From IMG/VR virus record IMGVR_UViG_3300017818_000115, positions 1 through 23,218 of that record: a DNA stretch of 23,218 nt, one strand, 5' to 3'. The position numbers and the translations under genes are program-made. The stretch is from a virus. The notes under the pieces were generated by a model. The model saw nothing but the letters and a program-made list of their open reading frames with translations. It had not been told where the DNA came from and searched no databases. Every line of letters begins with the position of its first letter. The first letter of the stretch is position 1. Below, piece by piece: positions 1 to 17,655 of this stretch.

Positions 1-419
1 AGGCACGCATCTTCTCTGGTGATTATACCAAATGTGCAGGGTCGTTTGGTGACCTTACTGAGGTGATTCAATTCGCTAAGCAAATGGCACAGACTGTCAC
101 CTTTTTGGATGATAAGCAGGCAAAGAAGATTAAGCAGCAATTGAATGCCTGTATCCGTGAGAATCGTCCTGTTGTGAATAGCGAATTTGACTGCGATCCT
201 CTGCTGCTTGGATTGTGGGCACTGGTCAAATCTATCAAGGATGACGCACTCTATCTCTGCCGTAATAATGGTCCTGCCGCTTATATCGGATACGATCAGA
301 TTGATGCCGAAGGTTATGTCTACTCCAATGAGTTCGGTACAATGAAACTGGTCAATCGTGAGCGGTTCAGCTATGCCAACTTCAACAACGCTAAGTTTAA
401 CAAAGAGGTGTGCCAGTGA
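1..419 (+). CDS. Unrecognised phage protein, 5'-truncated by the window
   Basis: The reading frame is open from base 3 and ends in TGA at 417-419, so about 138 C-terminal residues are visible and the true start lies upstream. A GTG at 63 is in frame, but the 20 codons before it are also open and protein-like (ARIFSGDYTK...), so I do not take 63 as the start. The visible part is soluble and mixed alpha/beta, with a Lys-rich helix (DDKQAKKIKQQL) and a tyrosine-rich C-terminal stretch (YIGYDQIDAEGYVYSNEFG). I see no membrane segment and no catalytic motif I can name. Composition is intermediate between the GC-rich genes just downstream and the AT-rich structural genes. Its TGA overlaps a GTG at 416 of the next frame (GTGA), but I favour a later start for that gene. 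It could be the C-terminal end of a larger conserved cyanophage protein; no function is proposed. Confidence 0.75.
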   Translation, partial: ARIFSGDYTKCAGSFGDLTEVIQFAKQMAQTVTFLDDKQAKKIKQQLNACIRENRPVVNSEFDCDPLLLGLWALVKSIKDDALYLCRNNGPAAYIGYDQIDAEGYVYSNEFGTMKLVNRERFSYANFNNAKFNKEVCQ

Positions 420-441
420 GCGCACTGTCCACCCATGCCCC

Positions 442-468
442 TTGGGCGACCCCTTTACCCCTTATACT
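442..468 (+). promoter_or_regulatory. Possible sigma70-type promoter before the 79-residue gene at 491
   Basis: TATACT at 463-468 matches five of six bases of a sigma70 -10 box. TTGGGC at 442-447 is a weak -35 with a short 15-base spacer. The predicted start of transcription, near 475, falls inside a short inverted repeat. The gap between the stop at 419 and the ATG at 491 leaves room for a promoter. Confidence 0.35.
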
Positions 469-479
469 GACTTCAGTCA
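468..479 (+). promoter_or_regulatory. Short inverted repeat TGACT-TC-AGTCA, operator-like
   Basis: The arms TGACT (468-472) and AGTCA (475-479) are perfectly inverted around a two-base spacer. They begin on the last base of the TATACT box at 463-468 and cover the predicted transcription start. That position would suit a repressor site, but the repeat is short enough to arise by chance. Confidence 0.25.
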
Positions 480-490
480 AACGAACCGAC

Positions 491-730
491 ATGATCGACA
501 CCACCTTCAACGGATGGGCAAACTGGGAGACCTGGAACGTGTCCCTCTGGATTCAAAACGATGAGGGTCTGTACAATGAGGCACGCCGCCTGGCACGCTT
601 CGGTCGGACCTATCAGGACCTGGTGATGATGCTCCGTGACTGCGGCAGCAAAGAGACCCCCGACGGGTGCCGCTGGGATGATCCCGCAATCGACGGCATG
701 GAGATCAATGAGATGATGGCGGAACTCTGA
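491..730 (+). CDS. Small phage protein with NGWxNxETWNVxLW signature, function unknown
   Basis: This is a 79-residue soluble protein starting MIDTTFNGWANWETWNVSLW. The Trp-rich N-terminus followed by an acidic INxD/LYNEAR helix recalls a domain of unknown function that is widespread in phages and plasmids (from memory, possibly DUF7249); no biochemical role is known to me. I chose ATG 491 over the in-frame GTGs at 410 and 416. The residues between (SALSTHAPWATPLP...) look non-coding, and a -10-like box and inverted repeat lie there. Codons are strongly C-ended (GAC, ACC, CGC, CTG), unlike the AGA-rich, A/T-ended structural genes downstream. The next ATG follows two bases after the stop, so the two genes are probably co-transcribed. 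No clear Shine-Dalgarno sequence is present. Confidence 0.8.
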   Translation: MIDTTFNGWANWETWNVSLWIQNDEGLYNEARRLARFGRTYQDLVMMLRDCGSKETPDGCRWDDPAIDGMEINEMMAEL

Positions 731-732
731 TC

Positions 733-957
733 ATGGCATCTCCGATCAAAGTCCGCGACGCCCGCCGCATGATCCACAAAGCAGGCGGCACGATCAAATC
801 AGGGGGCAACCACGACAAGGTGACCCACCCCCTGATTAGTCGGACCTTTCACCTCCCAACCCATGGAAGCAAAGGACGCCCAACCCTCTCCCCTGGCATG
901 TCGTCAGAATTTCGTAAGTTCTACGCTCTCATGCTGACGGCAAAGGCAAGCGCCTGA
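733..957 (+). CDS. HicA-like mRNA interferase-fold small protein
   Basis: This 74-residue basic protein matches the HicA (YcfA) toxin pattern. An N-terminal helix (RDARRMIHKAGG, 8-19) leads to a strand with GGNH at 24-27, corresponding to the GSHH/GSHR segment that carries the catalytic histidine (here His27). A second strand, FHLPTHG (39-45), corresponds to the family's vPxH, and LSPGMSSEFRKFY (52-64) to the kpGTLrsILkq helix. HicA proteins have a dsRNA-binding-like fold and cleave mRNA, normally neutralised by HicB. No HicB-like ORF is adjacent on either strand. It starts two bases after the previous stop and shares that gene's GC-rich, C-ended codon use. Whether it is an active RNase, a host-shutoff factor or a repurposed RNA-binding domain cannot be told. 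The match is by motif reading only. Confidence 0.65.
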   Translation: MASPIKVRDARRMIHKAGGTIKSGGNHDKVTHPLISRTFHLPTHGSKGRPTLSPGMSSEFRKFYALMLTAKASA

Positions 958-961
958 TCCG

Positions 962-970
962 TGCTACAAT
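962..970 (+). promoter_or_regulatory. Extended -10 promoter element TGCTACAAT
   Basis: TGCTACAAT fits the extended -10 consensus TGnTATAAT with one mismatch. It begins four bases after the stop of the HicA-like gene and lies 25 bases before the ATG at 996, so a start of transcription near 977 would serve that ORF. There is no convincing -35 at 17 bases, which extended -10 promoters do not strictly need. Host sigma70-type RNA polymerase would be the reader. Confidence 0.5.
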
Positions 971-995
971 TCCAAAGCAACCGACAGACAGACCG

Positions 996-1235
996 ATGAT
1001 CCTCTCCATGTCCTCCGACCTTCGTACCCGTCAGATCGTTTGGACCGGTCGCGGCAACGACGACTCCCCCATGGGGTCGCGCCTTCAACCCCAGCTGGGA
1101 ATCAGTGCGTTCGCCATCGCAGGGCAGAACGCTGAAATCTGGAAGGATGAGGCAACCACCTGCCCCGTGAGTGGGTGGAAGCACGGCAGCACCCTTCAGG
1201 ATCCCGACGCTCTCTACGACCTCATGCGTTCGTGA
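996..1235 (+). CDS. Hypothetical 79-residue protein, weak support
   Basis: The frame encodes MILSMSSDLRTRQIVWTGRG... with a stop at 1233-1235. It lies just downstream of an extended -10 element and follows the orientation of its neighbours, and its codons are C-ended like theirs. ATG 1008 is an alternative start. I recognise no family, signal peptide, membrane segment or catalytic motif; the protein contains two cysteines well apart (TTC, and none paired nearby) and several Gly/Ser-rich stretches. A longer open frame lies on the opposite strand at 921-1295, which is common in GC-rich DNA and makes the coding call less certain. The promoter, leader and following hairpin favour the + strand frame. 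Confidence 0.45.
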   Translation: MILSMSSDLRTRQIVWTGRGNDDSPMGSRLQPQLGISAFAIAGQNAEIWKDEATTCPVSGWKHGSTLQDPDALYDLMRS

Positions 1236-1245
1236 AACAGCAGTG

Positions 1246-1270
1246 CCCCGCCGTGCCCGCCCGGGCGGGG
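1246..1270 (+). terminator. GC-rich hairpin closing the accessory cassette
   Basis: CCCCGCC (1246-1252) pairs with GGCGGGG (1264-1270) around an 11-base loop. An alternative fold is the perfect 14-base palindrome CCCGCCCGGGCGGG at 1256-1269. It begins 10 bases after the stop at 1235, the right place for a terminator, but no U-tract follows (TCGCCGCCGTG), so it may instead be a pausing or mRNA-stabilising structure. Confidence 0.45.
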
Positions 1271-1281
1271 TCGCCGCCGTG

Positions 1282-1299
1282 TATATAAAACCCATGGGT
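1282..1299 (+). promoter_or_regulatory. TATATAAAA box abutting palindrome ACCCATGGGT
   Basis: TATATAAAA (1282-1290) resembles a -10 or a variant late promoter and is directly followed by the perfect 10-base palindrome ACCCATGGGT (1290-1299). An identical TATATAAAA recurs at 1350-1358, next to the start of the AbrB/MazE-like gene. The arrangement resembles a promoter with an operator, which would suit an autoregulating AbrB/MazE-like protein. This is inference from layout only. Confidence 0.3.
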
Positions 1300-1324
1300 C
1301 CCCTTAGTCTACAAAGTGTTACGA

Positions 1325-1361: not shown

Positions 1362-1556
1362 ATGGACGAAAACAGAGAGATGCAAAAAAATCCGGAGGAA
1401 AATTTTACGACTGTAGAGGTTGATTCAATAACTGGCGAGTATTATATAACGTTACCCGAGTGGGTATTAAATGATTTTGGGTGGTACGAGGGCACTCAAG
1501 TAAACATGGAGATTGAGGGAGACTGCATTGTAGTGAGTGAATTGAAGGAGGATTGA
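1362..1556 (+). CDS. Small AbrB/MazE-like (SpoVT-fold) protein
   Basis: This 64-residue acidic protein shows the swapped-hairpin beta pattern of AbrB/MazE-type proteins. A strand with G-E-Y-Y-I-T-L-P (25-32) is followed by a short helix (EWVLNDFGW, 33-41), the turn EGT (43-45), then VNMEIEGDCIVVSEL (47-61). In the family this fold dimerises and binds DNA, acting as transition-state regulator or antitoxin. The N-terminal extension (DENREMQKNPEEN) is polar. ATG 1380 (residue 7) is a plausible alternative start with a weak GAGAGA upstream; ATG 1362 has no Shine-Dalgarno sequence. Composition returns to AT-rich here. No toxin partner is directly adjacent; the nearest candidate is the HicA-like gene, which is from an unrelated toxin type. 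Regulatory, antitoxin or anti-restriction roles are all open. Confidence 0.6.
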   Translation: MDENREMQKNPEENFTTVEVDSITGEYYITLPEWVLNDFGWYEGTQVNMEIEGDCIVVSELKED

Positions 1557-2713: not shown

Positions 2714-3379
2714 ATGAGTTGTCTCATCACCAATCTACCATCAATGGAAGTATGGGTTCGTAAGGAATATCTTACAGATCATCAAAGTGGTCATGGTGAA
2801 TTTGTCAAGGGCGTTTGGGTTTCGGCAAAGTCGATTCCTGGACGCGCTTTTTATTTTGAGACTTATTTGCCAGAATATGCCGCAATGTATGATAAACTGC
2901 CGATTAGCGCGTTTGTCTCGTCGCCGGAAACACCTAGTCCCGATATGGACCTACCAAACTTACAATTTTGGAACTGTATGGACTATGGTGTAGTCAGTAT
3001 TGATAAAAAGTTCATTGGTAGTATGGACTTTGAGTGTTATACACGCGATTTTGGCATTCAAAAAGGTACTTATGTCTGTACAATCGACAATTATCATCGT
3101 GATCCAGACATGGTAGACTGGGCAACGAGTGAAAATCCTGCCGAACACAAGTCTCATAACCTGATTGAACTTGAAAATGGTCAATATGCACTGTATCCAA
3201 ACAATCGATTACGTATTTTTGACAATAGTTTGACACCTGTCGAACCAAAAATGCCTGATTTCAAGGTTTCGACTCAATATTATCAAGTTGAGAATGGTTA
3301 TGAACGTCTTGGAATGGGTAGAGAGGATGAATATCACTGGAAAACTGCCAAAGAACGTGAAGAAGAGGAAAATAAATAG
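2714..3379 (+). CDS. Conserved-type cyanophage protein of unknown function, 221 residues
   Basis: The protein begins MSCLITNLPSMEVWVRKEYL and is soluble, with many aromatic residues and a beta-rich first two thirds. Recognisable stretches are SGHGEFVKGVWVSAKSIPG (25-43), a Pro-rich segment (SSPETPSPDMDLPNLQFWNC), an NxYHRDPD segment, and LIELENGQYALYPNNRLRIFD near residue 150-170. The last 15 residues are charged and helical (KTAKEREEEENK). No catalytic signature is obvious. The match of lengths and phrases to proteins I recall near the baseplate genes of marine cyanomyoviruses suggests a conserved virion-associated or assembly role, but that is a memory of context, not a domain call. ATG 2714 is the first methionine after the previous gene; no Shine-Dalgarno sequence precedes it, only an A-run. 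Confidence 0.8.
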   Translation: MSCLITNLPSMEVWVRKEYLTDHQSGHGEFVKGVWVSAKSIPGRAFYFETYLPEYAAMYDKLPISAFVSSPETPSPDMDLPNLQFWNCMDYGVVSIDKKFIGSMDFECYTRDFGIQKGTYVCTIDNYHRDPDMVDWATSENPAEHKSHNLIELENGQYALYPNNRLRIFDNSLTPVEPKMPDFKVSTQYYQVENGYERLGMGREDEYHWKTAKEREEEENK

Positions 3380-6066: not shown

Positions 6067-9000
6067 ATGATACAGACTGGTTTTGAATCTAGAGTCAAGG
6101 TTCAGCAGATTGTTGAGGGCCAACTTCCAAGTTTTATATTGGATGAAAATCCAAATGCTTCTGAGTTTTTAAAACAATATTACATATCTCAAGAGTATCA
6201 AGGCGGTCCAATAGACATTGCCGAAAATCTTGATCAATATCTGAAGTTAGACAATCTTACGCCAGAAGTAGTTGTTGATAGCACAACACTATCTTCTGAT
6301 GTCAGTTCAAGTGCAGAATCTATTACTGTTTCTAGCATTAAAGGATTTCCGAGTAAGTATGGTCTTTTGAAGATTGATGACGAAATCATTACTTACACAG
6401 GAATAACTGGAAGCACTTTTACTGGGTGTATTCGTGGATTTAGTGGTATTACAAATTATCACCAAGATCTGAACCAAGAAGAACTAACATTTTCAACCTC
6501 AGATGCGGCAGAACATACTGCTGACACAACCGTTCAAAATCTCAGTTCTCTTTTCCTCAAGGAGTTTTATCAAAAGGTAAAATATACTATTGCTCCAGGA
6601 TTAGAAAAAACAGAATTTACATCCGAGTTGGATGTGGGTAATTTTTTAATTGAAGCAAATTCCTTCTATAAAGCAAAGGGAACTGACGAGTCTTTCAGAA
6701 TTTTGTTTAATGTTCTCTATAATGAGACACCAAAAATTATAAATCTGGAAGAATATCTTATCAAACCATCTTCTGCTGAATATGTAAAGAATGAAATCAT
6801 TCTTGCTGAAGTTATTTCTGGATCTAATCCAAGAAATTTGGTTGGACAAACTGTAACAAAGTCTACAGATTCCTCCACAAATGCTTCCGTTTCTTCAGTA
6901 GAATCCTTCAATAGAAATAATCAACAATATTATAAGATATCTCTTTTTGTTGGTAATGATGAATTCCCAACAATTTTGGGTAATTTTACAATAACCCCCA
7001 ATACAAAGGCAACATCCGATTCTTCGGCATCGTCTTCGGTAGTTACTGTAGACTCTACAATAGGATTTCCAGAAAGTGGAACCTTGGTCTGTGGAAACAA
7101 TACAATAACCTATACTAGTAAATCAATAAACCAGTTTTTGGGTTGTAGTGGAATAACAGAAGACATTGCAAAAAATTCAGTAGTTAGAAACAATGATACT
7201 TACTTTGGATATGAGAATGGTGATACTAGCAAGAAAGTAGAATTTAGAATTCTTGGCGTACTATCAGAGTTCTCTGCGACATCAGATAATCTTAATGTTT
7301 CTGAAGGTGATATTGTTGGCATCAAAAATCTTGGCGACTTAATTGAAAATCCTCAAACTAAGACACAGAAACAGATCTTTGCAAACTCTTGGATTTATAA
7401 TACTGCTGCCAGATATGAAGTATTGAGTACCGATGCCAATTATGTTTTGGCAACCAATATCGATAGATCTAGTCTAAAAGTTGGTGATAGAGTAGAGTTA
7501 CTTGAAAGAGACACCGAAACTTTAGTAGAAGCAACAAATGATCCAAGAATAATTCAAATAATTTCTGATAATACTGTAGAAATAGGCGGAGGATCTTTTT
7601 CTACAGTATCTGGGAAAAAATATGATTTAAGAAGAAAAATCAATACTGCAAGTAGTTCTGGTGTTTCATTGGAATATGGAAATGGTTTGATCACGTCAGA
7701 CGTACAAAATTTGTATTCTGATGGTGAAGATTATGCATATGTTGCATCAAACTCTTTACCATCATCCGCACTTTCTGATCCATATGACTACAGATATACC
7801 ATAAGTGCAGACATTAAGTCTGCAAGTATATCTTCTGTGAATAATTTGTTCAATAAAAATTCTGATGATGAATATGATACAATAGGTTTCGCAGATGCTG
7901 CACCATTCATAACTGGAGATAGAGTTTACTATCAACCAAGTTCCACTTCGCTTATTGGATTGGAAGCAGGAAGTTATTATGTTGAGGTTCTTTCCGACAA
8001 CAAAAAAATCAAATTATATTCTTCACCAGCTTTTGTTGGGACTACACCATTAAAATTTAGAGTTCCAGATTCTGGTGTAGATACTCAAACCTTTACATTA
8101 TATTCACAAAGATCTAATCAGATTGGAGTACAGAAGGTTCTTAAAAAATTCCCACTTCAATCTCAAATAAAGAGTCCAGGAGTTGAGACTATTCCAGGAA
8201 CAACTGGAATGTTAATCAATGGCGTTGAAATTAATAATTACAAGTCTTTAGATAAAATTTACTATGGTCCTTTAGAATCTCTTGACGTTTTAAATGGTGG
8301 AGAAAATTTTGATGTCATAAATCTCCCAACCATATCCATTGCCTCTGGTACATCAGATGCTTTGGCACAACCTGTAATCAGTGGTTCTATTATTAATGTT
8401 TATATTGATGCACAAGACTATGACATTAATAAAATTCTTTCTATAGACGTTAGTGGTGGAAATGGTTCTGGTGCTATTTTGGAACCAATTATTAGAAAAA
8501 GAGTAAGAGAGATAGATTTTGATGGAAGAACTGTAGTAAACGGTGGTGGCATAAGTACAACTGGAAATAGAATTTCTTTCCTAACAGAACACAATTTAAA
8601 CAATGGAGAAGAGGTAGTATATAACTCCAATGGCAATTCTCAGGTAATAATTGGTTCTGGATCATCTACTTTAATAAACAATTCTTCCTATTTTGTAAAA
8701 GTTGAAAATAATACTACTATAAGTCTATTTGAATCTTTAGATGATTATAATAACAATACCAATATAGTTGGATTTACTACAGGAACTCAAGGAACTCATA
8801 AGTTTAAAACAATAACACCAAAGAATACAATTTCTGAAATAAAAGTAATTGATGGTGGAAGCGGATATACAAATAGAAGATTGACTGTCAAATCTTCTGG
8901 CATATCATCAATAACAGATTCTATTTCCTTCAAAGATCATGGATTTAATACTGGTGATCTGGTTACATATGAATATGAAACTTCAGCGATAACAGGAATT

Positions 9001-12000
9001 TCAACATCCAATCAATACTATGTTTTAAAGATTGATGATGATTCGTTTAGAATTTGTAATGCAGGAGTTGCTGGAACAGATACTTCTTTCTTTAATAGGA
9101 AAAAATATGAAGTTTTCTCAGACACAGGTTCTGGATATCAATATTTCAGTTATCCAACAATTTCAGTATCAGTAAAATACAATCCCGTTGGATTTAGTAC
9201 TAATACTCAAACCTATCAGGAGATTGTAGCAACTCCTGTTGTAAGAGGATCTATAGAGCAAGTGTACCTTTATGAGAATGGTGCTGGATATGGATCTACA
9301 GTAATAAATTACGAAAATAATCCCACCGTAACCATAAAGAATGGGAAAAATGCATCATTAGTTCCAATCATTTCTAATGGGAAGGTAGTTTCTGTAGACA
9401 TTCAATATAGTGGAGAAGAATATTATTCAATTCCTGATCTAATTGTCACTGACTCTAGCGAATCTGGAAGTGGTGCAAAACTAAGACCTGTTATTTCTGG
9501 TGGAAAAATAACAGAAGTTAAAGTAATAAGTGGAGGGTCAGGATATTCTGATTCTTCAACCTCTATTTTGGTCAAATCTTCGGGAATTAATGCAGTATTA
9601 AATCCAAAAATTAGAGCACTTACTGTAAACGAAAATCGCAGACTTGGAAATGAAATCTTGCAAGAGTCTGACAATAAGTTAAAGTATACAGTCTCTGGTT
9701 ACTATGAAGATTTAAGGACATCATTTGGTGAGAATGTTGGAAGTATTTCTGGAATTATTGGATGGGCTTATGACGGAAATCCAATTTATGGATCATATGG
9801 ATATTCGGATCCAAAAGATTCTGCATCAGCGATATCAAGAGTTTCTTCTGGTTATGTTCTAGATACTACGTATATCGATAGACCATCAGGTTTTGATTCG
9901 GGATTTTTTGTAGAGGATTACAAGTTTACAGGTTCTGGGTCCACTCTTGATAAAAACAATGGCAGATTTGGTAAAACTCCAGAATTTCCAAACGGTGTAT
10001 ATGCATATTTTGCAACCATTGATTCGTCCGGAAATCCAGAGTTCCCATATTTCATCGGAAATGATTATAAGTCAGAAATTTTAAGTGAAAATACTACACT
10101 AGATCAGTCTTTTGACTTTTCAAATTCTAGTCTGCTTAGAAATACTTATCCATATAAAGTTTCAGATAAAAATGCTGGATATGATTTTATCCCAAAAATT
10201 GATGATATTACAAGTCAAAAAATAGTCGTAGAGTCTGTATCTCAGGGAAGCGTTGAAAGTTTTACTGTAAAGAATTCTGGTACAAGATATAAGGTTAATG
10301 ATACTCTAGAGTTGAATGATGTTGGAGGTGCAAACGCTGTTGTATCATCTCTAGAAGGAAAGGATATTACCAATTTAGAAACTACAGTTACAACATATGA
10401 GGAGTCAATATTTACTTGGGTTGATGGAGAAACGGTAAAAGTTTCAATCTTACCAAGTCATACTTTAAATAATAATGATCATGTAACTATTTCTGGATTA
10501 TCTACAGATCTCTCAAAATTGAATAGAGTTTACAAGATAAATGTTAATTCAAAGAGTTCTGTTGCAATATCTTCAATATCTTCAGCAACAAGCATTGGTG
10601 GAACTGAAATATACGTCTCGTCAATTCCTAATAATATTTCCATAGGAAGTAGCATTGGTATAGGAACCGAAACTCTCAGAGTTTTAGAGTTATTCCAAAA
10701 TGAAAATGTAATTAGAGTAGAAAGGGGACTGACAAATGTTTCTCACGATGCAAATTCAACAATAACCTTCAAGCCTGATTCATTTACAATTAAACAAAAT
10801 ATTGATTTTTTCAATTCCAAAATTAATGATAAAATTTTCTTTAATCCCACGGAAGCGGTTGGATATGGAACAACTGCAGGAACTTCGTATTTAACTACAT
10901 TCGATTTTGGAGATCAAGTTGGAATTGAGAGAAGTATTCCAATAAAGGGAATTTACTTAAAAAATCATCCATTCACAAATAACCAACAGATCGTTTATTC
11001 TACAGACGGATCTAATATATTAGTTTCCACTGATGGTATATCAACAAATAATTTACCTTCCACTGTCTTTGTCATTAATAAAGGAAAGGATTTAATCGGA
11101 ATAAAAACTACTTTAAGTTCTGAAGAAGTATTTTTCCACAGTGGAGGTGATGACAGTGATTTATATTCTTTCGAATCTCAATATACTCAAACTACAGGAA
11201 AAGTTGAAAAAGTAAAAACTACAGTTTCAGTTTCTACTTCTCATGGAATGTCCACCGATGATGTCGTCAATCTAACAGTTAATTCTAATTTATCTGTTGG
11301 TATTGGAACATCTACTGCTGTAAGAATTTCTAGAGATCAAAATAGAATTTTAGTTAATCCCATAGGATTTAATTCTACTGCTATTAATATATCCACAAAT
11401 ACAATTACATTGCCTGATCATGAATTGGAAACGGGAGATAAAATTTACTATTCTGCCGATTTAGTTGCTTCTGGATTATCCATCGGAGATTATTACATCT
11501 TTAAAATAGACTCTAATAGTGTAAAACTAACTGAAACTTATTTTGAATCTCTTAAAGTTCCACCCACAGTGGTAAGTATTGCAGGAACTGGAGGAAGTTC
11601 TCAATCTATATCCAAAGTTAATCCAAAAATAGAATCGACAAAAAATAATAACTTGGTATTTGATTTATCAGATTCTTCCCTCCTAGATTATAAGTTTAGA
11701 ATTTATAATGATCAAAACTTCGAGGATGAGTTTGTCTCAACAGGATCAACAACACCATTTAATGTATCGGGTGTGGGTACTGTCGGCGTTTCAACAAATG
11801 CATCTCTAACTATAAATTACAGTTCTAACCTACCCGAAAAATTATATTATAATTTAGAAAAATCTGGATTTATAAGCACTGCTGACAAAGATGTAAATGA
11901 CTATTCTCAAATTTCATTTGTAGATAGTGTATATAATGGAAATCACACTATTGTTGGCGTTGCAACGACATCATTCGACTTAGTTCTCAATCGTGCTCCT

Positions 12001-15000
12001 GAAAGGTTATCATATACTCAGAGTGAGTGCGATGACTTAAAGTATACAACAACATCTACTACTGCAACAGGTGGAATTGACAAGGTAAGAATTATTTCTG
12101 GTGGATATGGGTATAAGAAGGCACCAATTGTTAGTAATGTCACTTCAACAAATGGTAAAGATGCATATCTTTTGGCAAAATCAAATTCCATTGGAAGTAT
12201 AAAAGAATTGAGAATTGTAAATAAAGAATTCGAATATTCTTTTGATCCAACCTTAAGACCGTCTGCTTTCATATCTCCAAACATTATTACAACAGATTCA
12301 AACACATTAGATTCTGTACTAGTTGAGAATGGAGGTAGTGGATATACTCAAGAACCAGAAGTTATTGTTGTAAATTCTACTACTGGAGATAAGATTAATT
12401 CCGGAAATTTAAAAGCTTCTTTGGTTGGTGAGTCGATACAAACTGTAGAAATATTAGAAAATCCAAGAGGTCTTCCAGAAGATTCCGTTAATATTATTAC
12501 TATCAATAATAGTAACGGAATAAGCATTCAAAAAGTTGAATCTAGTTCGACTGGAATATTTACTTGCTCTATAACTGTTCCTCCACTAGGATTTGTCACT
12601 CTCCCATTTGCTGCAGGAGATAAAGTTTTTATTGAGGGCATTGAAAAATTCGGTTCAGATGGATCTGGATTTAATTCTGAAGATTATGATTATAAATTCC
12701 TTGTTGTTGATAGTTATGATTCTTCATCAACACCTTACCATAAAGTAGTATTTGACCTCTCAAGCACTGCTAATAGTGGATTAACTACTAATACCGGTAT
12801 TGCCAAGACATCAACAGGAGCATTTGGTTCATTAATTCATTTTGACAATTATCCAACTTTTGAAGTAACTCAAAGAAGATTAGATTTTAATGTTGGAGAA
12901 CAACTAATTTCTAATCAGACGGAGAGAGATCTGTTCATTACTAGTTCTGATGGAACAAGATTGAAAGTTTCTGGAACTTATGAATTATCTGTTGGCGAAA
13001 CAATAACAGGGAAATCAACGGGAACTATAGCAACAATTGACGAAATAGAAATTAATTCTGGAACATTTGATGTCGATTATTCTATTCCAGAAAATGTAGG
13101 ATGGTCTGATGAAATTGGAAAATTAAATACTGATAATCAGGTTATTCCAGATAATGACTATTATCAAAATCTTTCATATTCTGTAAAGAGTAGTAAAGAA
13201 TATGAAGAAGTAGAAAAATCTATCAAACCTTTACTTCACACTAGTGGATTGAAAGATTTTGCCGATACTGGTATAACATCTACAACAGATGCGTCAGACG
13301 CACTTGGAATTGATAAAACAACAGTAATTCGTGATTTTATAGATGATCTTAGAGTTGATACAATTTATGATTTTGATTTTGCCAAAGACATTGATATTGA
13401 TTCTGAAGGAAGATCGACGTATCTACAATTATTGAATACAAAGTTAACTGATTATACGGACAACATTGGGAACGTTGTATTGGCAATAGATGATATTAGC
13501 GACAAGTTCTCATATTTTGAGGATAGTCCCAGTGAGTATTTAAATTTACTTAAATTAAATTCTTCAACTTCTTTTGAAAGTTTCTTAGTAAGAATCACAA
13601 ATGCTAATAACAGTGAAGTTCAACTCACAGAAGTAGTAGTTTTAAATGATGGTGCTAATAGTTTCCTTGTAGAAAAGGGTGGAGTTGTTAATGTAGGTTC
13701 TGGATCAACATCTCATACGCCAGATGAACAATATGGAGATTTGGATATTGTAGTAGATGAATTTAATGATAGTTATTTGAGATTTATTCCTGAAGATCCC
13801 TATGATACAGACTATGATTTAAAACTCATAAGAAATACTTTTACAAATTCTATATCTGGTATTGGTACAACTTCTATTGGATTTATTGATTTAGTAAGTA
13901 CTACCGGTGTTACAACTTCCGAATCTACTAAAACTATAGCGTCATTTGACAATAGTGAATTTGAATCCTTGTATGCCAATGTTCAGATCATTGATAATAC
14001 TTCAAATGATATGAATTTTGTTGAACTATATGTAACTTCAGATGGATCAAATACTTATCTCTCAGAGTACTATTTTGATAGTGAAAGTGAAACATCATCT
14101 TTCTCAAATAACTTTATAGGATCTTTTGGTGCAAATCTCTCTAGTGGAATTTTATCATTAAATTATACCAACACTTCTTCCAATGACAACACTTTTAGAG
14201 CAAGAGTTGTTGGATTTGGAACTACTACGTCTGGAACTGGAACTTATAGATTTAGATTGGACAGAGAACCTGAAGGATCTGAAAGATCTGCAATCTATAA
14301 ATCAGATTTTACTACGGGAATTGGAACAGCAACTATAGTTTCATTAGACAAGACACTATTCAACTCTACAAAATCTCTTGTAGAAATTAGTGTTGGAGAT
14401 ACAAAATCTGTTCATCAAATTATGATGATACAAGATGATAGTGATGTTTATCTGCAACAGTCAGCTTTATTGAGTGTTAGTGGTATATCGACATTTGATA
14501 CTGCAATTGGTATAGGAACATTTGGTGGAAATAATTCTGGATCAAACTTAGAACTTAAGTTCTACCCAGATTCCGACTATTCTTCCCAAAACATAGTTAT
14601 TTCTGCATTCACCCAATGTTTTTATACTGTTTTAGATACAGTTAATACACCTCCATCTCTTGAGTATGGAAACACTCAAGAGTCTGTTAATCTTAAATTC
14701 TATAATTCTATCAATGGAGATAGAATTAATAGAACCAATTTTACATTAACATCCGAAGGAACTCCAATTTTTGTCAAAGTAATTGATCCTGAAGACACCA
14801 ATGCATTAATAGCAACTACAGGAACATTTAATGTTACAAATCACTTCTTCAGAGATGGTGAAGAATTAGTTTATACACCAAAATCAACCATTGTTGGTGT
14901 CGCAACTACTGCAATGACATATAGAGATGCGGATAGTGGAGTATCTGATACTTTACCATCTACCGTTTTTGCTGTTGTAACGAATCGTAATTACGATCAA

Positions 15001-17655
15001 TTCCAAATATCAACAACAAGAAGTGGTACTGCAGTGACCTTTACTGATCTTGGTGGAGGAAATGCTCATCAATTCGAAATGGCGAAAAAAAGTGAAAAGT
15101 CAGTAGTTGTAGTTGATAATTTAATTCAACATCCATTAATTTTCACTAGTATTTCTCACACATTATCCAATGCTATCGGAGTAGCGATTACCACATTTAA
15201 TCTGAGTGGCATATCTTCAATAAACCCATCGGACATATTAAAAATAGATGATGAGTATCTTAGAGTTACTAATGTTGGATTAGGGACATCAAGCACTGGA
15301 CCAATTACTAATAATGGATCATTTAATTTGGTCCAAACTGATAGAGGGTTTGTAGGAAGTTCGGCAACGTCCCACTCATCATCAGCACAAGTTGATATTT
15401 ACAGAGGTGCTTTTAATATTGTAGAAAACGAGATACATTTTGCAGAAGCACCAAGAGGAAATCCTCAAATAGATAAAACTAAGTTTAATTTGGATTACGA
15501 AACTTCTTCATTCAATGGAAGAGTTTTCCTAAAATCTGATTATACTTCAAATAAAGTATATGATGACATATCAAGCGAGTTTAATGGTATTGGAAGAACA
15601 TTTAGTTTGAAAGTTGGCGGTGCAAATACTACTGGTCTGAGTACCGATGGTAGTAGTGGTATTGTTTTAATTAATGGTATTTTCCAACAACCAACAACTC
15701 CAAATAATCCTAAAGGTAATTTTGAAATAACAGAAAATGCGGGAATAAGCACTATCACATTCTCAGGAATTACAGTTCCTAATAGTGATCCATTGGAATA
15801 TATTATTTCAGATGTTGATGTAAATCAAAATGAAACTCCAAGAGGTGGAATTATTGTTTCTCTTGGATCTACACCAGGACTTGGTTTTGCACCACTTGTA
15901 GGAGCATCTGTGACTGCTACAGTTGCTGCTGGATCTATTACTGGCATAACAACTGATTTGCCTGGAGGATCATTTGGATCTGGTTATAATGGTTTAACTT
16001 CTATTGGTGTCACTGTTTTTGAGGATGGGCACTCTGGAACGGCAGCAACTATTACTGCTACTGTAGGTGCTGGTGGAACACTTTCGTTTACTATTGATGG
16101 AGGGGGAACTGGTTATACAAATCCATCAGTATACGTATCATCACCATCTTATGAAAACCTTTCTGTTGTTGGAGTTTCAAGACTTGGAGTTGGGACAACA
16201 ACCACAACTGGTATTGGATTATCAATTAGTTTGAGTGTTGGTTATGTTGGAATTGGATCAACTTACTTTGGGGTGGATAATTTTGAAATTACTAAAGATG
16301 GATATTCTTTCCGAAGAGGTGATGTATTTAAACCTGTTGGTCTCGTTACTGATTCTACATTATCAAGTCCTATTCACGAATTTGAATTAACAGTCTTAGA
16401 AACTTATTCCGATAAATTTGCTTCCTGGCAGTTTGGAAACTTAGACTTTATTGACTCCATTTCAGATCTTCAGGATGGTACAAAAACAACGTTCCCATTA
16501 TTCTATAATGGGGAACTTATTAGCTTTGAAGCGGATCCTAGCATCAGGATTGACCTGCAAAATTGTTTATTGATATTCATAAATGGAGTTCTTCAAGAAC
16601 CAGGAGTTAATTATACTTTTGGTGGAGGAACATCGTTCGTATTTACTACTGCACCAAAACCAGAAGACAATATTTCAATTTATTTCTACAAAGGAAGTTC
16701 TTCTGATTCTTCTGTTGGTAGTGTTTCTGAAACTATAAAGAAGGGTGATACTCTTCAAGTAGTAAAATTCAATGATGCTCCAGATATTCTATCTCAAAAC
16801 AAGAGAACTGCTACAGATCTGTCATTCTCGGATAAAGTTGAAACAGAAACGTACTCTGGTCCTGGAGTAACTGAAACTTATAGACCATTAAGTTGGACAA
16901 AACAAAAAGTCGATAAGAACATCAACGGTGAGTTTGTTTCTAAAGCGAGAGATTCCATTGAGTCACTAATTTTCCCAACAGCAAATATTATTGATGATGT
17001 ATCTACATCTGATACTGAAATATTTGTTGATAGTGTTGAATTATTTAAATATGAAGATCCTGATTTAAGTTCTTTTGATGCGTTAATAGTTGGTGGAATA
17101 TCAACTGCTTCAATATCTACAATAACTGGAAATGATTCAATTGAACTTGTAAAGAATTTCACAACTATCCAAGGAGATTCTGGATCTGTTGTAGGAATTG
17201 CATCTACATCTTCACCAAATCTTGCTATAGAATTTACATTAGATTCTTTAGTTGGAACTGATCTTCAGGTTGGTTATCCAATTTATATCTTCAATACTTC
17301 GGTTGGATCTGGAGTTACATCAATTGACACCTCTGGTAGTCAAATTGTTGGTATTGGCACCACTTATATTGACAATATCTACTATGTTCAAGCTTTAAAT
17401 ACCTCTACTGGTATTATAACTTGCCGTATTCATTCTGGTTCAAATGTTATTGGAATAAACACCACAGGAACTGAAGATTATCCAGTTGGCAGATATTCTT
17501 GGGGTAGGTTGTCCAATGCTTCTTTAGAAAGATCTTCCAATCCAATTTCAATAGGTGTAACTGGAAGGGTTGTATCAGGACTTTCAACATATCCAATTCT
17601 TCAAAGAAGAAATGTGGGAATAAGATCTACTGGCGCTTTACCCAAACTGTTATAA
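6067..17655 (+). CDS. Giant 3862-residue repeat-rich virion protein in the gp7 position (YHYH-like domain)
   Basis: Position between gp6 and gp8 makes this the cyanophage counterpart of baseplate wedge gp7 (about 1030 residues in T4), at several times the length. Residues 1-65 and 155-245 look like a specific N-terminal head. The rest is Ser/Thr/Gly-rich beta structure built from repeats. GGSGYT-type motifs occur near 745, 930, 1070, 1114, 1156, 1404, 2012, 2089 and 3345. H-x-L-x-x-G-D modules have their His at 842, 958, 1465, 1634, 1726, 1785 and 2926. IDDE/YTG modules lie at 79-132, 319-364, 1501-1568 and 3027-3115. Three tandem modules start near 2499, 2619 and 2759. INGxxQxP motifs lie at 3202 and 3504. 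A YHYH-like domain (about 1205-1335) has GWAYDGNPIYGSYGY and a YAYF at 1312-1315. It probably forms the outer wedge body, perhaps with receptor-facing parts. There are no internal stops and no membrane segment. Orthology to T4 gp7 is inferred from position. Confidence 0.85.
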   Translation: MIQTGFESRVKVQQIVEGQLPSFILDENPNASEFLKQYYISQEYQGGPIDIAENLDQYLKLDNLTPEVVVDSTTLSSDVSSSAESITVSSIKGFPSKYGLLKIDDEIITYTGITGSTFTGCIRGFSGITNYHQDLNQEELTFSTSDAAEHTADTTVQNLSSLFLKEFYQKVKYTIAPGLEKTEFTSELDVGNFLIEANSFYKAKGTDESFRILFNVLYNETPKIINLEEYLIKPSSAEYVKNEIILAEVISGSNPRNLVGQTVTKSTDSSTNASVSSVESFNRNNQQYYKISLFVGNDEFPTILGNFTITPNTKATSDSSASSSVVTVDSTIGFPESGTLVCGNNTITYTSKSINQFLGCSGITEDIAKNSVVRNNDTYFGYENGDTSKKVEFRILGVLSEFSATSDNLNVSEGDIVGIKNLGDLIENPQTKTQKQIFANSWIYNTAARYEVLSTDANYVLATNIDRSSLKVGDRVELLERDTETLVEATNDPRIIQIISDNTVEIGGGSFSTVSGKKYDLRRKINTASSSGVSLEYGNGLITSDVQNLYSDGEDYAYVASNSLPSSALSDPYDYRYTISADIKSASISSVNNLFNKNSDDEYDTIGFADAAPFITGDRVYYQPSSTSLIGLEAGSYYVEVLSDNKKIKLYSSPAFVGTTPLKFRVPDSGVDTQTFTLYSQRSNQIGVQKVLKKFPLQSQIKSPGVETIPGTTGMLINGVEINNYKSLDKIYYGPLESLDVLNGGENFDVINLPTISIASGTSDALAQPVISGSIINVYIDAQDYDINKILSIDVSGGNGSGAILEPIIRKRVREIDFDGRTVVNGGGISTTGNRISFLTEHNLNNGEEVVYNSNGNSQVIIGSGSSTLINNSSYFVKVENNTTISLFESLDDYNNNTNIVGFTTGTQGTHKFKTITPKNTISEIKVIDGGSGYTNRRLTVKSSGISSITDSISFKDHGFNTGDLVTYEYETSAITGISTSNQYYVLKIDDDSFRICNAGVAGTDTSFFNRKKYEVFSDTGSGYQYFSYPTISVSVKYNPVGFSTNTQTYQEIVATPVVRGSIEQVYLYENGAGYGSTVINYENNPTVTIKNGKNASLVPIISNGKVVSVDIQYSGEEYYSIPDLIVTDSSESGSGAKLRPVISGGKITEVKVISGGSGYSDSSTSILVKSSGINAVLNPKIRALTVNENRRLGNEILQESDNKLKYTVSGYYEDLRTSFGENVGSISGIIGWAYDGNPIYGSYGYSDPKDSASAISRVSSGYVLDTTYIDRPSGFDSGFFVEDYKFTGSGSTLDKNNGRFGKTPEFPNGVYAYFATIDSSGNPEFPYFIGNDYKSEILSENTTLDQSFDFSNSSLLRNTYPYKVSDKNAGYDFIPKIDDITSQKIVVESVSQGSVESFTVKNSGTRYKVNDTLELNDVGGANAVVSSLEGKDITNLETTVTTYEESIFTWVDGETVKVSILPSHTLNNNDHVTISGLSTDLSKLNRVYKINVNSKSSVAISSISSATSIGGTEIYVSSIPNNISIGSSIGIGTETLRVLELFQNENVIRVERGLTNVSHDANSTITFKPDSFTIKQNIDFFNSKINDKIFFNPTEAVGYGTTAGTSYLTTFDFGDQVGIERSIPIKGIYLKNHPFTNNQQIVYSTDGSNILVSTDGISTNNLPSTVFVINKGKDLIGIKTTLSSEEVFFHSGGDDSDLYSFESQYTQTTGKVEKVKTTVSVSTSHGMSTDDVVNLTVNSNLSVGIGTSTAVRISRDQNRILVNPIGFNSTAINISTNTITLPDHELETGDKIYYSADLVASGLSIGDYYIFKIDSNSVKLTETYFESLKVPPTVVSIAGTGGSSQSISKVNPKIESTKNNNLVFDLSDSSLLDYKFRIYNDQNFEDEFVSTGSTTPFNVSGVGTVGVSTNASLTINYSSNLPEKLYYNLEKSGFISTADKDVNDYSQISFVDSVYNGNHTIVGVATTSFDLVLNRAPERLSYTQSECDDLKYTTTSTTATGGIDKVRIISGGYGYKKAPIVSNVTSTNGKDAYLLAKSNSIGSIKELRIVNKEFEYSFDPTLRPSAFISPNIITTDSNTLDSVLVENGGSGYTQEPEVIVVNSTTGDKINSGNLKASLVGESIQTVEILENPRGLPEDSVNIITINNSNGISIQKVESSSTGIFTCSITVPPLGFVTLPFAAGDKVFIEGIEKFGSDGSGFNSEDYDYKFLVVDSYDSSSTPYHKVVFDLSSTANSGLTTNTGIAKTSTGAFGSLIHFDNYPTFEVTQRRLDFNVGEQLISNQTERDLFITSSDGTRLKVSGTYELSVGETITGKSTGTIATIDEIEINSGTFDVDYSIPENVGWSDEIGKLNTDNQVIPDNDYYQNLSYSVKSSKEYEEVEKSIKPLLHTSGLKDFADTGITSTTDASDALGIDKTTVIRDFIDDLRVDTIYDFDFAKDIDIDSEGRSTYLQLLNTKLTDYTDNIGNVVLAIDDISDKFSYFEDSPSEYLNLLKLNSSTSFESFLVRITNANNSEVQLTEVVVLNDGANSFLVEKGGVVNVGSGSTSHTPDEQYGDLDIVVDEFNDSYLRFIPEDPYDTDYDLKLIRNTFTNSISGIGTTSIGFIDLVSTTGVTTSESTKTIASFDNSEFESLYANVQIIDNTSNDMNFVELYVTSDGSNTYLSEYYFDSESETSSFSNNFIGSFGANLSSGILSLNYTNTSSNDNTFRARVVGFGTTTSGTGTYRFRLDREPEGSERSAIYKSDFTTGIGTATIVSLDKTLFNSTKSLVEISVGDTKSVHQIMMIQDDSDVYLQQSALLSVSGISTFDTAIGIGTFGGNNSGSNLELKFYPDSDYSSQNIVISAFTQCFYTVLDTVNTPPSLEYGNTQESVNLKFYNSINGDRINRTNFTLTSEGTPIFVKVIDPEDTNALIATTGTFNVTNHFFRDGEELVYTPKSTIVGVATTAMTYRDADSGVSDTLPSTVFAVVTNRNYDQFQISTTRSGTAVTFTDLGGGNAHQFEMAKKSEKSVVVVDNLIQHPLIFTSISHTLSNAIGVAITTFNLSGISSINPSDILKIDDEYLRVTNVGLGTSSTGPITNNGSFNLVQTDRGFVGSSATSHSSSAQVDIYRGAFNIVENEIHFAEAPRGNPQIDKTKFNLDYETSSFNGRVFLKSDYTSNKVYDDISSEFNGIGRTFSLKVGGANTTGLSTDGSSGIVLINGIFQQPTTPNNPKGNFEITENAGISTITFSGITVPNSDPLEYIISDVDVNQNETPRGGIIVSLGSTPGLGFAPLVGASVTATVAAGSITGITTDLPGGSFGSGYNGLTSIGVTVFEDGHSGTAATITATVGAGGTLSFTIDGGGTGYTNPSVYVSSPSYENLSVVGVSRLGVGTTTTTGIGLSISLSVGYVGIGSTYFGVDNFEITKDGYSFRRGDVFKPVGLVTDSTLSSPIHEFELTVLETYSDKFASWQFGNLDFIDSISDLQDGTKTTFPLFYNGELISFEADPSIRIDLQNCLLIFINGVLQEPGVNYTFGGGTSFVFTTAPKPEDNISIYFYKGSSSDSSVGSVSETIKKGDTLQVVKFNDAPDILSQNKRTATDLSFSDKVETETYSGPGVTETYRPLSWTKQKVDKNINGEFVSKARDSIESLIFPTANIIDDVSTSDTEIFVDSVELFKYEDPDLSSFDALIVGGISTASISTITGNDSIELVKNFTTIQGDSGSVVGIASTSSPNLAIEFTLDSLVGTDLQVGYPIYIFNTSVGSGVTSIDTSGSQIVGIGTTYIDNIYYVQALNTSTGIITCRIHSGSNVIGINTTGTEDYPVGRYSWGRLSNASLERSSNPISIGVTGRVVSGLSTYPILQRRNVGIRSTGALPKLL
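9679..10080 (+). other. YHYH-like domain within the giant protein
   Basis: Residues about 1205-1338 contain GWAYDGNPIYGSYGYSD (from 1232), typical of the YHYH family's G-x-A-x-D-G-x-P-I-Y-G signature. NGVYAYFATIDSSGNPEFPY follows near 1310-1328. The name-giving Y-H-Y-H is Y-A-Y-F here, so the two histidines are lost. The family's function is poorly known; it occurs in secreted and surface proteins. Confidence 0.7.
13561..14640 (+). repeat. Three tandem 120-140-residue protein modules in the giant gene
   Basis: Modules starting near residues 2499, 2619 and 2759 share a pattern. Each opens with a Ser/Asp/Phe-containing segment (TSFESFLVRI, SEFESLYANVQI, TLFNSTKSLVEI). A strand ending in an asparagine or aspartate plus V/S/Y-L pair follows (DGANSFLVEK, DGSNTYLSEY, DDSDVYLQQS). 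Next come a Gly/Ser turn and a closing strand (YLRFIPE, LSLNYTN, LELKFYP). Duplication at protein level is clear by eye; the DNA is diverged. Confidence 0.6.

Follow-up and report, generated by a model that had tools for sequence, protein, structure and literature searches.

The window analysed here, the whole of a 23,218-base virus fragment recorded in IMG/VR, carries a gene whose small product resembles HicA toxins, and it raises the question of what such a protein might do in a phage when no HicB antitoxin appears to accompany it. The isolates nearest to the window by DNA similarity are mostly T4-like Synechococcus phages, of which S-SKS1 is the best match (79% over 9% of the window), and on these similarities we assign the window to a T4-like cyanophage; ARAGORN reported no tRNA in it. 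The gene lies within a GC-rich island, whose features and borders are listed here.

3..419, + strand: C-terminal part of a DUF6267 gene, the left border of the island.
420..1300, no strand assigned: GC-rich island of small genes, with 55-63% GC in 200-base steps (401-1300) and 38-46% immediately either side.
462..468, + strand: TTATACT, a -10-like box preceding the DUF7249 ATG by 22 bases and a candidate promoter for the gene pair.
491..730, + strand: DUF7249 / PHROG 871 gene, directly upstream of the HicA-like gene; the start at 491 was chosen, and the ORF opens at 410.
733..957, + strand: apparently solo HicA-like gene with an ATG start, encoding 74 aa with a putative catalytic H27, G24/G25 and a second His, H44.
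964..970, + strand: CTACAAT (in TGCTACAAT), a -10-like box that precedes the family C gene.
996..1235, + strand: small conserved gene of family C, starting at 996, 1005 or 1008, with no HicB profile match.
1362..1556, + strand: gene of a small PHROG 661 protein with a weak AbrB/MazE-like match, the right border of the island.

The first-pass annotation had called this protein HicA-like on the basis of three motifs, all of which are present: GGNH (residues 24-27), PTHG (42-45) and LSPG (52-55). The protein is strongly basic, with a pI of 11.4. Its match to the Pfam family HicA_toxin is weak (E 0.046; its 14.3 bits fall short of the curated cut-off, 27, which is a database threshold and not a biological feature), and HicA_toxin is the sole Pfam family that it matches up to E 10; no NCBIfam family was matched, and a PDB sequence search with the protein gave no match. 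All 23 members of an alignment of its relatives match HicA_toxin at E up to 1, with a best E of 1.6e-5, and the relative L092, which is 43% identical to the window protein, scores 26.0 bits, just below the cut-off. Two PHROG families labelled 'toxin' also match the window protein, PHROG 18430 at E 5.7e-19 and PHROG 353 at E 7.9e-6. Searching the PDB with the alignment of relatives (A1) brought up nothing but an NSA2 homologue (E 0.11), which we took as chance. Pairwise dN/dS between the window gene and each of 22 relatives ranges from 0.09 to 0.35, in a set that excludes the more distant relatives (L086 onward) and in which several dS values are near saturation; these ratios point to purifying selection on the gene, which is therefore more than a chance ORF.

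An AlphaFold model of the window protein (pLDDT 85.8, pTM 0.67) has the order alpha-beta-beta-beta-alpha and matches the dsRBD-like fold of that order in solved HicA structures. When the model was compared with the PDB by VIA-align, six HicA-type entries came out on top with Z scores of 5.5-8.1, ahead of an unrelated row at 4.5, with the proviso that a Z below 8 may reflect merely a common arrangement: 6g26 (Z 8.1, rmsd 1.9, 60 aligned), 1whz (Z 7.8, rmsd 1.9, 62 aligned), 5yrz (Z 7.5, rmsd 1.9, 56 aligned), 6hpb (Z 7.0, rmsd 2.2, 56 aligned), 4p78 (Z 6.8, rmsd 1.8, 57 aligned) and 4c26 (Z 5.5, rmsd 3.7, 58 aligned). Four of the six have HicA or HicAB in their titles; 1whz is titled a hypothetical protein, and 5yrz a toxin-antitoxin complex, which we take to be HicAB, while 4p78 (HicA3) is presumably from Y. 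pestis. A superposition of 1whz on HicA has been published (PMC3969222). Foldseek placed 6g26 (two chains), 1whz and 4p78 in its top four PDB rows at E 0.05-0.09 (best 0.054), and found no PDB match at E 0.001; the closest viral model was that of the S-RIM8 relative, at E 1.1e-7. On the strength of the predicted model we count the window protein as a member of the HicA fold family, its direct profile score lying below the cut-off.

The annotation had also described the putative catalytic His27 as kept, and the relatives agree. The 63 contigs with a match, the window among them, yield 37 distinct matched peptides, and all 37 have a His-x4-His pair that includes H27 (in L083 and L084 the search pattern caught an earlier overlapping His pair, and GGKHNKVTH is present in both), and H27 and H32 are invariant across 29 aligned proteins. 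The His residues of E. coli HicA and of the HicA of Planktothrix phage PaV-LD align with H27, which is predicted to sit at the beta1-beta2 turn, as the catalytic His of HicA does. Toxicity of the B. pseudomallei HicA requires both His24 and Gly22 (PMC3969222); the latter, two residues before the His, corresponds to G25 of the window protein, a position at which a few distant relatives have A or S instead (GSKH in L089, TASH in the L092 group). Many HicAs have a second His (PMC3969222), near whose place H44 would lie; 34 of the 37 distinct peptides retain it within LPxHG, and three lack it. Taken together, the HicA-type predicted fold and the retained putative catalytic His bear out the HicA-like identity of the protein.

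The annotation saw no HicB next to the gene and proposed a wider search for one. The window genes on both flanks of it indeed have no HicB match in Pfam or PHROG, and scanned members of the neighbour families B, C, D, G, I and J have none either; no cognate HicB, which in a hicAB module is usually adjacent, was found beside the gene. Beyond the locus, the HicB profiles PF15919 and PF05534 matched none of 13 phage records, comprising the window fragment, nine other IMG/VR records, the complete S-RIM8 and S-RIM50 genomes, and S-SKS1; the genome of the window phage itself could be searched only as its 23,218-base fragment, and the other IMG/VR records may be fragments too. The third profile, PHROG 497 (HicB), matched none of the same 13 and did find the HicB of PaV-LD, added as a fourteenth record and positive control. 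The toxin profile PHROG 353 matches 12 of the 13, with S-RIM8 and S-RIM50 among the carriers and S-SKS1 the non-carrier. By these profiles, the HicA-like gene appears to be solo.

Nine neighbour families were tracked across 28 non-redundant loci (33 chosen, less five near-duplicates); untracked ORFs may lie between the gene and these neighbours. The nearest tracked neighbour upstream is family D in 17 loci, family I in seven, DUF7249 in two and none in two; downstream it is family C in 23, a gene of the 1362 type in two, DUF7249 in two and family I in one, where the 23 may be an overestimate, since the C cluster contains some ORFs in other frames. S-RIM8 and S-RIM50 have no family C, and all that they show of family D is a weak match of 24 positions within a roughly 2,400-aa open frame; D is also present in isolates that yielded no relative of the window protein. 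None of the tracked protein families is therefore a constant partner, and C and D as obligatory antitoxins are not supported. The AlphaFold model of family C (pLDDT 53.8) is too poor for judging whether it hides a HicB. Family D proteins, found in several cyanophages, are acidic (pI 4.1-4.3 in the five members computed) and 39-55 aa long (for example L005:3281-3448), with a conserved core LL..(G)..L.IL and an end of the IQF/IAF/IIW type; one member that was scanned had no Pfam or PHROG match.

The AbrB/MazE-like neighbour at 1362-1556, whose product has weak AbrB/MazE and SymE-type matches at E about 0.1, was also considered as an antitoxin and rejected, as similar DNA is present in S-SKS1, where PHROG 353 finds no HicA-like gene; in S-SKS1 that DNA adjoins baseplate genes. 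Farther along the window, 1626-2384 encodes a PHROG 1574 protein with weak similarity to glycosyltransferases (PHROG 34859, E 2.5e-4), and 2714-3379 is a PHROG 3704 gene whose S-SKS1 locus bears conflicting names: RefSeq calls it ferredoxin, GenBank PurM. One ORF of 3,862 codons takes up 6067-17655, after genes with matches to the baseplate wedge DNA of S-SKS1.

Several known systems offer points of comparison. The S-RIM8 'toxin' (YP_007518140.1; PHROG 18430, Neptunevirus) is 53% identical to the window protein over residues 4-63 and keeps the catalytic His, and the complete S-RIM8 genome, like the window, gave no HicB profile match. The S-RIM8 protein lacks H44, however, and its gene lies near a helicase and a methyltransferase in a locus without family C; unlike the window, the 8-kb locus has no ORF that clustered with the DUF6267 family, and the DUF7249 profile (PHROG 871) had no match in S-RIM8. 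Canonical HicAs (E. coli 6hpb, B. pseudomallei 6g26, HicA3 4p78 and S. pneumoniae 5yrz) are 17-23% identical to the window protein, for which, in contrast to them, no HicB partner was found, and its GSKGR-TLSPG stretch is three residues longer in the alignment than those of the E. coli and PaV-LD HicAs. PaV-LD carries a class 1 hicAB, with a cyanophage HicA of similar size (PMC10865869), but its hicA is overlapped by a HicB gene whereas none was found for the window gene. The same paper, by Gerdes, sets out 14 HicA contexts, among them hicA beside viperin genes, and in the portion consulted no solo phage HicA was noticed among the contexts. HicA is also named twice in an Aphanizomenon cyanophage (PMC6293099).

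Parallels in arrangement are LeBron gp82 (PMC13148394) and Abt2graduatex2 gp67 (PMC5773734), HicA-like proteins for which, in the relevant passages of those papers, no antitoxin is identified; both belong to actinophages, with other hosts than the window phage. Overexpression of the orphan LeBron gp82 is not toxic (PMC13148394). The HicB-paired Adephagia gp91 is highly toxic in a manner dependent on its His and Gly (PMC11373665), and Amelie gp73, another phage HicA, is highly toxic as well (PMC11797047). Relatives of the window protein already bear the label 'toxin' in RefSeq and PHROGs, and HicA-like phage proteins without a partner are on record in print; we found no literature on this cyanophage family by title or abstract among open-licence PMC papers. 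Scans of genome_contigs with alignment A2 and with L092, which require near-exact short peptides and miss distant HicAs, yielded no cellular relatives, and tblastn of the L092 protein against phages gave no match at E 0.01.

A functional analogue, though not a homologue, is offered by T4 RegB, a toxin-like endoribonuclease with no known antitoxin in a T4-like phage (PMC3014915). RegB inactivates early mRNA in T4 (PMC3014915). Its structure resembles RelE/YoeB and not HicA, and we propose no homology with the window protein, for which HicA, and not RegB, is the sole Pfam family up to E 10. Six related records, of which five carry the HicA-like gene, gave no match to the RegB profile, in a set that did not include T4 as a positive control.

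The setting of the gene bears on when it might be expressed. Two bases separate the DUF7249 stop from the start codon of the HicA-like gene, a gap that makes it likely that the two are co-transcribed. The three island genes have GC3 values of 0.68-0.77 against 0.17-0.51 in ten others measured. An assembly artefact was ruled out, as the island is present with both borders at 99.7-99.8% identity in two other IMG/VR contigs, L002 (dataset 3300020207) and L003 (dataset 3300023110), and in diverged form in many further contigs; its length and gene order differ among related contigs at the same place. In GC-rich blocks of the 28 loci (300-base blocks above 50% GC), the + strand has 94 copies of CTAYAAT and the - strand one, against a shuffle mean of 2.6, and for TATACT the counts are 35 and three, against 3.0; in the other blocks the corresponding figures are 27, 18 and 14.7 for CTAYAAT and 60, 39 and 20.7 for TATACT, which is thus raised there too. 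In GC-rich DNA, 105 of 113 box hits lie no more than 70 bases before an ORF start, compared with 1040 of 1948 random places. Over the window as a whole neither box is clearly enriched (17 found against 10.1 expected for one, with 4 of 100 shuffles reaching 17, and 5 against 5.6 for the other), neither type lies directly upstream of the HicA-like gene in the window, and a scan of 400-1400 for -35/-10 consensus sigma-70 promoters and terminators found none.

The CTAYAAT boxes form a strand-specific array before small shuffled genes that looks like a set of mobile promoter cassettes. They recall the PeSL (promoter early stem loop) cassettes of T4-like phages, in which shuffled genes are separated by an early promoter coupled to a stem-loop (PMC4503421), and of which few are reported in cyanophage S-PM2 by the same authors. 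Several relatives have hairpins, picked by eye, just upstream of the box, and in seven relatives likewise picked by eye the leader folding z was -1.8 to -3.2 in six and -0.5 in one. The boxes of the GC-rich islands are strongly enriched; the two leaders in the window itself fold with z of -1.1 and 0.1, little or no better than shuffles.

The reading that we tentatively prefer, to which we give a little less than even prospects, is that T4-like cyanophages have here a HicA-fold protein that acts alone, with no antitoxin, as an early RNase or RNA binder in a role like that of RegB. The protein would be made early by the host RNA polymerase from host-like promoters, would bind RNA and then cleave it using H27, and would depress the translation of mRNA from the host or from early phage genes, freeing ribosomes for later phage genes. 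A lytic phage would have no need of an antitoxin because the cell dies anyway, and damage would be contained if expression were low or the targets short-lived. The predicted HicA fold, the kept His, the basic charge, the purifying selection, the lack of a HicB profile match, the cassette setting and the precedent of RegB support an antitoxin-free RNase. Against it count the non-toxic orphan LeBron gp82, the sub-cut-off Pfam score together with the lack of a Foldseek match at E 0.001 and Z scores mostly below 8, the fact that G25 and the second His are not universal, and the lack of both a -10-like box directly upstream and a consensus sigma-70 promoter. That the protein is a host translation shut-off factor is offered as a hypothesis only.

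Other readings compete with this one. The dsRBD-like nature of the HicA fold (PMC3969222), the very basic charge and the lack of toxicity of LeBron gp82 (PMC13148394) would suit a HicA-fold RNA binder that is non-toxic or not a nuclease in vivo, and that, for example, binds structured RNA and protects or remodels phage transcripts; we consider this rather unlikely, as plain RNA binding does not obviously demand a His kept in all 37 distinct peptides. It is decidedly unlikely, in our estimation, that the protein is a toxin paired with an antitoxin that escapes recognition, be it another small protein of the phage, a small RNA or a host HicB. An RNA antitoxin has been suggested for the solo HicA of the Streptomyces phage Abt2graduatex2 (PMC5773734), and the prevalence of the acidic family D upstream (17 of 28 loci) and of C downstream (23 of 28) might point to a protein partner, but S-RIM8 and S-RIM50 have the HicA-like gene without C and with only the weak D-like match, D is present where no relative of the window protein was detected, and the scanned C and D members do not match HicB. 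A counter-defence function, in which the protein would bind host HicB or mimic host HicA and so tune a host HicAB, draws on the HicA fold and on the proposal that HicAB is an anti-phage system (PMC10865869); freeing host HicA would harm the phage, and we regard this as very improbable.

Returning to the antitoxin-free protein that we prefer, a bolder form of the proposal is that a domesticated HicA serves as an early mRNA-inactivating nuclease, a second toxin fold having been recruited independently for the job of RegB, with promoter-carrying cassettes passing the gene among phages. The five carrier records searched gave no RegB profile match. We judge this fuller version unlikely. Should the protein be active, a lytic phage would be using a toxin-fold nuclease minus its antitoxin as a tool of takeover, and one 74-aa protein, together with the cultured relatives S-RIM8 and S-RIM50, would provide a simple test system for the clearance of early or host mRNA; should it be inactive, the annotation of an orphan 'toxin' in these phages would be explained as that of an RNA binder.
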